Source: a virus
Strand: one strand, 5' to 3'
IMG/VR virus record: IMGVR_UViG_3300044609_000148
Span: 1 to 27,584 of that record
Length of the DNA stretch: 27,584 nucleotides
A program made the position numbers and the translations under genes. Under the pieces are notes generated by a model. That model was not told the DNA's origin, did not search any database, and was given only the letters and a program-made list of their open reading frames with translations. Shown piece after piece: positions 1-3,760 of this stretch; the stretch's first letter is position 1, and every line of letters starts with the position of its first letter.

Positions 1-415
1 TAATGTTGATACAACGTTTGACCCATGGAAGATCAGCTCTACCAACAGTGATAAACTCAAGTACGTCAGGGTGGTTAAGATCAAGATGACATACAACAGC
101 TCCATTTTTATAAACACCCCCGCGTCGGAGTACTTCATTCAGGGTTGAGTAGATCTTGGCAAAAGAGACCGGGCCAGAGGCTACGAGTCCTTTTCCATTT
201 TCAGCTCCTTTGGGTCGCAGTTTGCTAAGGTGGACAGCAACGCCTGCACCATATCGGAGTGCATGGCTAACGAAACGCCAACTGGCTTCGATTCCATTTT
301 CTCCTTCCATCGTGTCTTCCACAACGAAGACTGTGCAGGAGACAGGCAAGCGAGAGGTGGGGTCATCGATCCAACTTTGTACACGACCAGTACGAGCGAT
401 TAGTTCTTTGTTCAT
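1..415 (-). CDS. nrd: Ribonucleotide reductase large chain, N-terminal part (3' end outside window)
   Basis: The frame starts at an ATG at 415 and stays open to the window edge, giving 138 residues. It contains the ribonucleotide reductase signatures RPKGAENGKG, VASGPVSF, GGVYKNGAVV and HLDLNHPDVLEFI, with an early cysteine in LPVSC that fits the first active-site cysteine. Known role of the family: reduction of ribonucleotides to deoxynucleotides. Cyanopodoviruses usually carry a B12-dependent class II form, but the part seen here cannot settle the class. The ATG overlaps the TGA of mazG (ATGA), so the two are probably translationally coupled. With MazG, the gp1.7-like kinase and ThyX it would supply dNTPs for phage replication. 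The C-terminal cysteines and the rest of the barrel lie outside the window. Confidence 0.9.
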   Translation of the reverse strand, partial: MNKELIARTGRVQSWIDDPTSRLPVSCTVFVVEDTMEGENGIEASWRFVSHALRYGAGVAVHLSKLRPKGAENGKGLVASGPVSFAKIYSTLNEVLRRGGVYKNGAVVCHLDLNHPDVLEFITVGRADLPWVKRCINI

Positions 416-792
416 ACCAAATTATTAAGATTGGGTGGTTGATAGTTTGGTCCCTTCAAGACCTTCCCATCTTCACGGTAAATAGGGTTGCCGCTATCGT
501 CTAGTTTAGATAAGTTACTTTGATGAACACGATTCAGAGCTTCATCTAGATCCCATCCAAGATTAGCGGCATACTGATAACACACATAGACCAGATCCGC
601 TAGCTCCTTCAAACACTCAGCAGAGTTGATTGTAAGCCCCATGATTAGCTGGTTCTCAGCATCTAGGAACTCTTTAAACTCTTCAACGATCAAACGCCTC
701 TGCAAAGTCCGTGAAGCCGGCGTAGTACTGTTCTTCACCCGGAAACTTTTCCGGAATTCGACGGCTTGCTGCTGACGGGTGGAGGATGTCAT
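412..792 (-). CDS. mazG: MazG-like nucleotide pyrophosphohydrolase
   Basis: This 126-residue protein has the MazG helical metal-binding pattern: E38xxE41 in the EEFKEF helix and E63xxD66 in KELADLVYV, followed by GWDLDEALNRVHQSNLSKL. Family enzymes hydrolyse nucleoside triphosphates, or (p)ppGpp, to the monophosphate and pyrophosphate. In cyanophages MazG is thought to alter host nucleotide signalling or recycle nucleotides. The first 37 residues are coded inside the 3' end of the upstream gp1.7-like gene in another frame, about 110 bases of overlap. The N-terminal residues look MazG-like (QAVEFRKSF), so the long overlap appears genuine. The stop overlaps the ribonucleotide reductase start. 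No strong Shine-Dalgarno sequence is visible. Confidence 0.88.
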   Translation of the reverse strand: MTSSTRQQQAVEFRKSFRVKNSTTPASRTLQRRLIVEEFKEFLDAENQLIMGLTINSAECLKELADLVYVCYQYAANLGWDLDEALNRVHQSNLSKLDDSGNPIYREDGKVLKGPNYQPPNLNNLV

Positions 793-985
793 TTTCTAGT
801 TCGTTTTGAAGATAGTGGATTGCTTTGCGTAGATCATCACGTCGGCTTTCTTTGTAACCAGCACGACAAATATATTTAATTGCATTACCAAGGTGAAAGT
901 TTAGTCCTTGGTCTCGAACGAAATCCCAAACTTGGATATTACCTCGTCGATAATATTCGGGTCCGGTACTGTTGGTGTTGGCCAT
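683..985 (-). CDS. gp1.7-like nucleotide kinase (DUF3310 family)
   Basis: This 100-residue protein has the DUF3310 signature: the start YYRRGNIQVWDFV, then LNFHLGNAIKYICRAGYK and DLRKAIHYLQNEL (about residues 11-64). T7 gp1.7 belongs to this family and is known to phosphorylate dGMP and dTMP, so a role in dNTP supply is likely. It sits between the nblA-like gene and mazG and overlaps both (about 85 and 110 bases). The C-terminal tail after residue 70 is not obviously conserved and shares its DNA with the start of mazG. The start at 985 is kept because family members begin a few residues before the GxIQVWDF motif. There is no clear ribosome-binding site. Confidence 0.82.
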   Translation of the reverse strand: MANTNSTGPEYYRRGNIQVWDFVRDQGLNFHLGNAIKYICRAGYKESRRDDLRKAIHYLQNELENDILHPSAASRRIPEKFPGEEQYYAGFTDFAEAFDR

Positions 986-1188
986 TTAGAGACAAGATTA
1001 GAAACGTTGTTGCTTAAAACGAAGCACTGCTTTTGTAGAGCTAGAAAGAGGGTGATGATAGCATCAATCTCTGTCTTAGAGCTGTTCAGTGCGTCTTCAA
1101 TTTGACGCATCTTGAACTGTTGCTCTATTGTTAACTCAGTCACTGGTGGTGGGGGTCCAGTGTTTGATTTGTTCATTGAAAAAGTCAT
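901..1188 (-). CDS. nblA: NblA-like phycobilisome degradation protein
   Basis: Ninety-five residues. Residues 18-69 resemble NblA: a proline run, then LTIEQQFKMRQIEDAL, an amphipathic helix, and LQKQCFVLSNNVSNL ending in KW. NblA of cyanobacteria is a small helix-hairpin adaptor that links phycobilisome proteins to the Clp protease. Viral copies are known in freshwater and marine cyanophages. The match is by eye and strongest over the EQQF helix. The start at 1188 is chosen over one at 1245 because GGAG lies four bases upstream. The 5' end overlaps the exonuclease gene by 53 bases and the 3' end overlaps the gp1.7-like gene by 85. Residues 70-95, beyond the usual NblA length, share DNA with that gene. 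It could still be an unrelated small helical protein. Confidence 0.65.
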   Translation of the reverse strand: MTFSMNKSNTGPPPPVTELTIEQQFKMRQIEDALNSSKTEIDAIITLFLALQKQCFVLSNNVSNLVSKWPTPTVPDPNIIDEVISKFGISFETKD

Positions 1189-1864
1189 AGTTCTCCGCTT
1201 GTAGGATTTTAGCAAGACGTGCGTTAAGTAGTGCAGCGTCTTCATCTAGGCCCTTCTCAGCAAAAGCATCTACAACTGTCTGCCAATTAGATCCATGTTG
1301 TTCAAGGAGGGCGTCTGCTCTCTTGATGCCAATACCAGGTATACCAGCATAGCCATCTGTCTGATCCCCTGCCATGGTTTGTATTAGATGCCACCTATCA
1401 CCTTCTTCTTTGGTAATTTCGATAACACCATCGTTGAAGTCATAGAGTTGACCAGGTATCTGTCTCATGTCCTTATCTGGACTGCAGATGATGTGACCTG
1501 ATTCTTTAGTGGCGTAAATACCTAAGGCATCGTCCGCTTCAAGCGTTGACATAATGATAACCGGGAACGTCTCTTGAAGCGCTTTGATGACTCGTTTGTA
1601 ACCACACGGTTTCTTTCTGTTTCTATGTCCTTTATAGTTTGGGTCGAGAGATTTACGAAAGTTAACAGAATCAGAAAAAAACAGAATAGAATCGTCAAAA
1701 CAGCCTAAGTTATTAGCAATGTTGTACAGTTCTCGCTCTACGTGCTGGTAAGCTTCAGAGAAGCGACTTGTTACTGTGATAACATCGTTACCCCAGTCAA
1801 TCTCAGTCTCGTTGGCTGCACAACACTTATAAACGATGTAATCGGCGTCAATTAAGAGGCTCAC
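1136..1864 (-). CDS. 5'-3' exonuclease (T7 gp6-like, FEN/PIN family)
   Basis: This 242-residue protein has the family's metal-binding acidic residues in order: D6 and D8 in LLIDADYI, EADD at 109-112, the SPDKD pair at 130/132, and GDQTDGYAGIPGIG at 166-179, which combines metal ligands with the helix-hairpin-helix DNA-binding turn. In T7, gp6 removes RNA primers, degrades host DNA and acts in concatemer processing. The start is a GTG at 1864 that overlaps the TGA of the small basic gene upstream. Its 3' end overlaps the nblA-like gene. It follows the DNA polymerase, as in other cyanopodoviruses. Confidence 0.93.
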   Translation of the reverse strand: MSLLIDADYIVYKCCAANETEIDWGNDVITVTSRFSEAYQHVERELYNIANNLGCFDDSILFFSDSVNFRKSLDPNYKGHRNRKKPCGYKRVIKALQETFPVIIMSTLEADDALGIYATKESGHIICSPDKDMRQIPGQLYDFNDGVIEITKEEGDRWHLIQTMAGDQTDGYAGIPGIGIKRADALLEQHGSNWQTVVDAFAEKGLDEDAALLNARLAKILQAENYDFFNEQIKHWTPTTSD

Positions 1865-2012: not shown

Positions 2013-3338
2013 TTAGTGAACGTCTGCCCAAGTTTGTCCGACTTTGGACTCAGCTTCGATAGGGATTCTAATGCCGTAGCTTTCTCCAGCGGTGAGGGAG
2101 GATAATTCAAGGGCTGATTTAAGTGTGTCAGCATAGTCAGAGGGGCATTCAAATTGAAGTTCGTCGTGAACAAAGGCTAGTTGATAAGCTTCGATTTCAT
2201 TCAGTTTGATTACGTTATGAGTGTGAACCATCCATAACTTCGCTACACAGCTCGCACTCCCCTGGAGAAGGTAGTTAAGGGCTTTGTGGCTACCATCAAC
2301 AGGGCAGCGGCGACCGTCACACAACTGTATGTAACCAGATTCCGCCTTGGACTTAACCGCAGTAACCAGTTTCTCAAGTCCTGGAATTGCATCCATGTAA
2401 GCTTGACGAATCTCTTTACCCTTGGCAGTTGCATTTTTATCAGATAGTTGTGGGTCATAACTTAAGCCTATCTTCTTATCTCCAGCACCGTACAAAAAGG
2501 CATAAGTTACAGTCTTGACTAGACGGCGGCTAATGCCTATTTTGTCTGCATTCTCTTGGTGTATATCGCCGTTGAGAAGAACGTCTCCGTACCTGCCTCC
2601 ATCATATCTAGCCAGATAGTGAGCGAGGAGTCGCAATTCAATGCCTGCGAGATCAGCACCAACCATGACATAGCCAGGACTAGCGCAGAATAGCTTTCTA
2701 AAATTAAGATCACTAGGTACCTGTGCAAGGTTTGGGTTTCTGTGAGCGCATCTAAAAGTATTAGTGGCTACAGAACAGTGGTGGTGTACTCGGTTATCCT
2801 TGACAAGTTTAAGCCAAGCATTGTTACCCTCAGATAACATACCGAGGTGTTTAGTTAGCTCAAGACAACGAAAGAACTGCAGAGATTCCTCTGTGCCTAT
2901 GTCCTTGAGTACCGTCTCATCAATAGCAGTTTTACCAGCTTTGGTTTGTTTATCAGGTTTCCAGCCATGTAGATTCTTCATCACCCACGCAATGTGATCA
3001 CGACTAGTTGGGGAGAATTCAATCAGCTTTGTACAGGGTGCTCCTTCGACATATCCGAGGGATCGGTTAACTCGCTTCGGAGTAAACTCGCGTCCTGCGA
3101 TGTAAGGATACCGCTTGCGTAATAGACCTTTAAGACCATCAAGCTCGGTATAGAGAGTTTGTGCAAGTTGCCGTGCAGCATCCTCATCAAATCTCCATCC
3201 ATATAATTCCTGATCAGTAAGTATTTGTGCGACCTGATGCTCTAGCGAGATCCATTCAGGTACGGTTGAAAGTGTTTCCAAAGTTTCGTAGTAACAACAA
3301 CATCTTGTACCATGTAGTCCTGCATTTCCTGCGACCAC
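2013..3338 (-). CDS. DNA polymerase, palm/fingers/thumb part (T7 gp5-like, family A)
   Basis: This frame holds the polymerase domain of a T7-type family A enzyme: motif A GADLAGIELR with D229, motif B RRLVKTVTYAFLYGAGDKK with K275 and Y279, and motif C FVHDELQ with H391 and D392 (numbered from the GTG at 3338). The exonuclease domain is coded in a different frame just upstream (3242-3760), so the enzyme is split. Real homology begins only near ISLEHQVAQIL, about residue 30. The first residues, with three cysteines in a row, are antisense to nothing known and are probably untranslated. Tyrosine at the O-helix position corresponding to E. coli Pol I residue 762 is the T7-like state. Either a frame-disrupting base, a sequence error or two separate polypeptides explains the break. 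Confidence 0.85.
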   Translation of the reverse strand: MVAGNAGLHGTRCCCYYETLETLSTVPEWISLEHQVAQILTDQELYGWRFDEDAARQLAQTLYTELDGLKGLLRKRYPYIAGREFTPKRVNRSLGYVEGAPCTKLIEFSPTSRDHIAWVMKNLHGWKPDKQTKAGKTAIDETVLKDIGTEESLQFFRCLELTKHLGMLSEGNNAWLKLVKDNRVHHHCSVATNTFRCAHRNPNLAQVPSDLNFRKLFCASPGYVMVGADLAGIELRLLAHYLARYDGGRYGDVLLNGDIHQENADKIGISRRLVKTVTYAFLYGAGDKKIGLSYDPQLSDKNATAKGKEIRQAYMDAIPGLEKLVTAVKSKAESGYIQLCDGRRCPVDGSHKALNYLLQGSASCVAKLWMVHTHNVIKLNEIEAYQLAFVHDELQFECPSDYADTLKSALELSSLTAGESYGIRIPIEAESKVGQTWADVH

Positions 3339-3760
3339 TCTTTCCAGTCTGATGTCTTACCGAATGAGCCCTTGTACTCACCAAGACGGTACCCATAAGA
3401 CTCCAAAGAATGCCTACCATATAGTTGTAGAGGCATGTGATTCCAGTTGCGTCTCTTGTCTATACTAAGTATATCCGGATGACATATACGACTAAGCACC
3501 AGAGTATCAAGAACAAGGGACCTGGTATCAAACCATGGATATAGTTTGCGAATAACGGGTATGTCATAATTGATAATGTTATGCCCCACAATACACTCAG
3601 CGTCTTCAAGTCGTTGGAGACCACGACTAAGAGGTTCAGTGTTACCTTCGTCATTGTATACAAGCATCTGTTCAGCTTCTGTATCGTAGATAGCCAAACA
3701 GTGGATGCAGGTAACATCATGAAGAAGTCCGTTGGTTTCTAGGTCAAAGATAAGCGTCAT
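3242..3760 (-). CDS. DNA polymerase, 3'-5' exonuclease part (T7 gp5-like)
   Basis: One hundred and seventy-two residues with the three DnaQ-type exonuclease motifs: IFDLETNG at the start (Asp and Glu ligands), VGHNIINYDIPV near residue 60, and YMVQDVVV near residue 149. In T7 this is the N-terminal proofreading domain of gp5. Here it ends at a TAG after PYLNGSR, where the polymerase domain should follow. The remaining polymerase is in the -1 frame, overlapping by 97 bases. As family members are normally one chain of about 600-700 residues, the two frames together (about 172 plus 410) match a whole enzyme. The ATG at 3760 has only a weak ribosome-binding site. Confidence 0.87.
   Translation of the reverse strand: MTLIFDLETNGLLHDVTCIHCLAIYDTEAEQMLVYNDEGNTEPLSRGLQRLEDAECIVGHNIINYDIPVIRKLYPWFDTRSLVLDTLVLSRICHPDILSIDKRRNWNHMPLQLYGRHSLESYGYRLGEYKGSFGKTSDWKEWSQEMQDYMVQDVVVTTKLWKHFQPYLNGSR

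Follow-up and report, generated by a model that had tools for sequence, protein, structure and literature searches.

An nblA-like gene overlapping the exonuclease and gp1.7 genes in a T7-like cyanophage genome

In a 27,584-base stretch of a virus record (the whole of the sequence examined, hereafter the window), the minus-strand frame 1188..901 is a real gene and not a chance open frame, and sequence comparison makes it very likely that its product belongs to the NblA family. The gene is probably the cyanopodovirus NblA, a small helix-loop-helix proteolysis adaptor through which the host light-harvesting antenna would be dismantled. The window is part of a T7-like cyanophage genome, probably that of a Synechococcus phage, with Synechococcus phage S-CBP4 as a relative (83.6% identity across 79% for the first 12 kb of the window).

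Locus, gene order and selection

The features of the locus are as follows:

412..792, minus strand: MazG-like nucleotide pyrophosphohydrolase (PF01503, 38.9 bits; phrog_671, E=5.4e-36)
683..985, minus strand: gp1.7-like DUF3310 gene, called "nucleotide kinase" in the annotation of relatives (PF11753, 48.1 bits; phrog_236)
901..985, minus strand: 85-nt overlap of the gp1.7-like 5' end with nblA, holding the overprinted nblA C-terminal tail
901..1188, minus strand: nblA-like gene, 95 aa (phrog_27006, E=2.4e-41; PF04485, 18.9 bits, sub-threshold; core pN/pS 0.21)
1084..1137, minus strand: codons of the NblA N-terminal motif (profile positions 1-18), ELTIEQQFKMRQIEDAL, from a six-frame PF04485 search
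1136..1188, minus strand: 53-nt overlap of the exonuclease 3' end with nblA, where conservation favours the nblA frame
1136..1864, minus strand: T7-like 5'-3' exonuclease (PF02739, 40 bits; phrog_107, E=2.8e-67)

The nblA-like frame has no internal stop, encodes a protein beginning MTFSMNKSNTGPPPPVTELTIEQQFKMRQIEDALNSSKTEID, and is out of frame with both the exonuclease and the gp1.7-like gene. Positions 412-1864 form a four-gene chain of exonuclease, nblA, gp1.7-like and MazG-like genes joined by successive out-of-frame overlaps of 53, 85 and 110 nt. Elsewhere in the window (2013-3760), the DNA polymerase is spread over two overlapping frames, an exonuclease frame (3760..3242) and a polymerase frame (3338..2013); this possible frameshift is annotated likewise in S-TIP37 and P-SSP7.

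Using tblastn, we found the nblA-like gene in 37 cyanophage records (GenBank/RefSeq duplicates counted) and in 57 IMG/VR contigs, with homologues in S-CBP1, S-CBP3, S-CBP4, S-RIP2, KBS-P-1A, S-SBP1, S-TIP37, S-B28 and S-SRP01, and in the Prochlorococcus phages P-SSP7, P-SSP3, P-SSP2 and NATL1A-7. The exonuclease adjoins nblA in all 36 loci inspected, and in 34 of them the overlap with gp1.7 has the same relative frame, the remaining two (S-RIP1 and the IMG/VR contig L035) carrying an HNH endonuclease gene between nblA and gp1.7. These HNH genes sit at the same spot, the nblA/gp1.7 junction (L035:2704-3075 and, in S-RIP1, L069:1676-2011), and the S-RIP1 nblA appears frameshifted. The window gene belongs to phrog_27006, a family of unannotated function, both by sequence match and by its position between exonuclease and gp1.7. 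Exonuclease-nblA-gp1.7 is thus the standard order in cyanopodoviruses, so that the placement among replication genes remarked upon in the sequence-only reading is indeed seen in the window, but is not peculiar to it.

For the core of the gene, defined as the 49 codons outside both overlaps, 29 homologues were compared: the nblA frame has a pN/pS of 0.21, the two alternative frames have 1.30 and 4.14, and differences are concentrated at third codon positions of the nblA frame (0.47, versus 0.18 and 0.10). Because strong purifying selection in the core is confined to the nblA frame, we conclude that 1188..901 is a gene. The start at ATG 1188 is preceded 5 nt upstream by GGAG in the window, and the initial "MT" is kept in most homologues. 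The sequence-only reading had proposed a gene with both ends out of frame inside its neighbours, which is borne out by the 53-nt and 85-nt overlaps and by the core value; it had also held that poor conservation of this frame relative to the overlapping ones would speak against its proposal, and in the core, outside both overlaps, it is the nblA frame that is conserved. In the overlaps the picture is divided: the nblA frame is better conserved than the exonuclease frame where these two coincide (pN/pS 0.51 versus 0.77), but selection tracks gp1.7 at the other end (0.46 in the gp1.7 frame versus 0.84 in the nblA frame).

This division bears on the C-terminal tail, since the residues after Trp69 lie mostly within the gp1.7 overlap. 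Across homologues the tail after the conserved Trp measures from 10 to 34 residues, its length being set by where the frame meets a stop, and in L035, with its intervening HNH gene, the tail is unrelated and the core intact. Given that selection follows gp1.7, that length varies and that the L035 tail is replaced without loss of the core, the tail is best read as mainly a by-product of overprinting on gp1.7 and not an extra domain; we considered a functional C-terminal extension and rejected it on the selection and length evidence. The 26 additional C-terminal residues pointed out earlier do make the protein longer than NblA, but represent no conserved addition to it.

Relationship to NblA

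The window protein by itself scores 18.9 bits against PF04485, below the curated cut-off of 25 bits, and covers profile positions 1-17 only. Four homologues exceed the cut-off (S-TIP37, 27.8 bits; L045, 28.5; L057, 27.7; L060, 28.7), with matches that span nearly the whole profile (positions 1-47 to 1-49), so that in the profile check suggested by the sequence-only reading the window protein falls short of the cut-off and these four relatives surpass it. An NblA match at E<=1 is obtained for 26 of 28 family members (best 1.2e-7). When the profile of these 28 members was searched against the PDB, all four matches at E<=10 were NblA entries (3cs5, at 0.0035, 2q8v, 2qdo and 1ojh), and their alignments run through both helices. 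Comparison by hhalign with an alignment of 40 cyanobacterial NblA sequences gave a score of 37.8, whereas none of 200 column shuffles exceeded 12.5. In the reverse direction, tblastn of Synechococcus elongatus NblA (identical in sequence to PDB 3cs5) against 50,697 phage records retrieved at E<1 the nblA locus only, with matches in S-RIP2, KBS-P-1A, S-TIP37 and S-SRP01. The NCBIfam NblA model did not match the window protein and gave sub-threshold scores for its relatives L018, L057 and L060; a single-sequence phmmer search of the window protein against the PDB returned nothing relevant.

Splitting the profile shows where the likeness resides: the motif part scores 32.8, a value reached by 0 of 150 shuffles, and the helix-2 part 6.6, reached by 13 of 150. 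The NblA-like N-terminal motif noted earlier is thereby confirmed. In the window it reads LTIEQQF, which fits the NblA form LSxEQ[QE]F, the family form being LTxEQQFKxR; L19, E22, Q23 and K26 are invariant in 28/28 homologues, and F25 is present in 24/28. At the level of sequence, then, the similarity to NblA is mainly in the N-terminal motif, and membership is carried by the homologues and the profile comparison.

An AlphaFold monomer model places helices at residues 21-35 and 41-68, that is, short then long as in NblA, with low confidence (pLDDT 66.6, pTM 0.41), and the spacing of the two predicted helices is conserved. Foldseek comparison of this low-confidence model with the PDB and BFVD yielded weak, unrelated helical matches, with no NblA among the chains compared, and VIA-align on Foldseek's matches likewise gave only weak unrelated helical matches, NblA being absent from the chains compared; this outcome does not count against an NblA fold. 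The predicted helix hairpin therefore agrees with the earlier expectation as far as the helix-loop-helix is concerned, but the pLDDT and the absence of NblA from the Foldseek matches hold it short of confirmation.

Compared with the NblA that T7-like cyanophages of marine and estuarine waters carry (for example S-TIP37, S-CBP4 and S-RIP2), the window gene shares family, position between exonuclease and gp1.7, overlaps and frames, and differs by sequence divergence only: the S-CBP4 copy is 88% identical to the window protein, and relative to S-TIP37 the inter-helix loop is 2 residues longer and the overprinted tail is longer. An nblA mutant of S-TIP37 was reportedly used by Nadel et al. in 2025. 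With cyanobacterial NblA (PF04485; 3cs5, 2q8v, 1ojh) the window protein has in common the pattern P-P...L[ST]xEQ[QE]F, the predicted helix-loop-helix spacing and a Leu close to where helix 2 ends; it differs in its length (95 aa versus about 54-65), in a Gly/Pro-rich N-terminal leader and the overprinted C-terminal tail, and in the weak similarity of helix 2. Freshwater cyanophage NblA (Ma-LMM01, MaMV-DC, PaV-LD) is also phage-borne and, as described in PMC9602691, affects phycobilins; a tree in that source places marine and estuarine cyanopodovirus NblA in a cluster apart, distant from the freshwater proteins.

Proposed function and alternative readings

NblA acts as an adaptor that brings phycobilisome proteins to ClpC (PMC7966870). 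By homology, the viral protein would dimerise through its two helices, the dimer would bind phycobilisome proteins and hand them to the host ClpC/ClpP protease, and the dismantled antenna would then harvest less light and release amino acids. This is in line with Nadel et al. 2025 (Nature), cited in PMC12892361 for an oceanic cyanophage NblA that degrades host light-harvesting complexes, and with Nadel et al. 2019, credited in PMC9602691 with predicting nblA in 14 cyanopodovirus strains. The general role of viral NblA and the predicted presence of nblA in cyanopodoviruses are hence already published, and the window gene is one more copy. Its position within the replication module points to production alongside DNA replication proteins; the further proposal, that antenna breakdown is tied to nucleotide supply, is drawn from gene adjacency alone and is speculation.

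Two other readings were weighed. That we are dealing with a phage-specific small protein of unrelated function, in which LTxEQQFK arose convergently, seems to us very improbable: the sub-threshold Pfam match, the shortness of the motif and the lack of a structural match would fit such a protein, but the whole PDB yields NblA entries only, the profile score stands far outside its shuffle control (37.8 against at most 12.5), the helix spacing is conserved, the reverse search finds the nblA locus only, and nblA assignments in cyanopodoviruses are reported in PMC9602691. A genuine relative of NblA might instead share the motif, possibly its protease-facing part, and present Clp with some other host substrate, such as a protein of the photosystems, of transcription or of defence, with phycobilisome loss secondary or absent in some hosts. 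We judge this distinctly unlikely for the window gene, although the Prochlorococcus phages give it substance.

Prochlorococcus has neither phycobilisomes nor nblA (PMC7439483), and the gene is nevertheless kept in P-SSP7, P-SSP3, P-SSP2 and NATL1A-7, with a pN/pS of 0.07 between P-SSP7 and P-SSP3; in addition, helix 2 is indistinguishable from shuffled columns in the profile comparison. Against a change of target stand the oceanic cyanophage NblA reported, as cited in PMC12892361, to degrade light-harvesting complexes, the Synechococcus phage members whose match to the NblA profile continues through helix 2, and the possibility that cyanopodoviruses isolated on Prochlorococcus have a broader or recent Synechococcus host range, the host on record for P-SSP2 being Synechococcus WH8017. 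It is a tentative and rather unlikely idea that in Prochlorococcus phages, and perhaps in cyanopodoviruses generally, the adaptor has been retargeted off phycobilisomes, the motif half being retained to engage the protease while helix 2 could diverge. The Prochlorococcus phage loci are L004, L062, L063 and L064, and the P-SSP7 copy, PSSP7_019A, has no Pfam NblA match. Phycobilisome-directed NblA remains our preferred reading.

Annotation and significance

The gene is unannotated in S-TIP37, S-RIP2, S-SBP1, NATL1A-7 and P-SSP3, and in S-CBP4 and S-CBP1 the annotated start lies inside or after the NblA motif. Reference records with a mis-started or omitted nblA are L003:4082, L066:1561, L002, L065, L068, L062 and L063. 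With nblA missed or given a wrong start in several reference genomes, surveys of annotated proteins undercount it. The window is a further confirmed carrier of a viral gene that, according to the literature, lowers marine cyanobacterial light capture, and the maintenance of nblA under purifying selection in phages of phycobilisome-free Prochlorococcus presents a testable puzzle.
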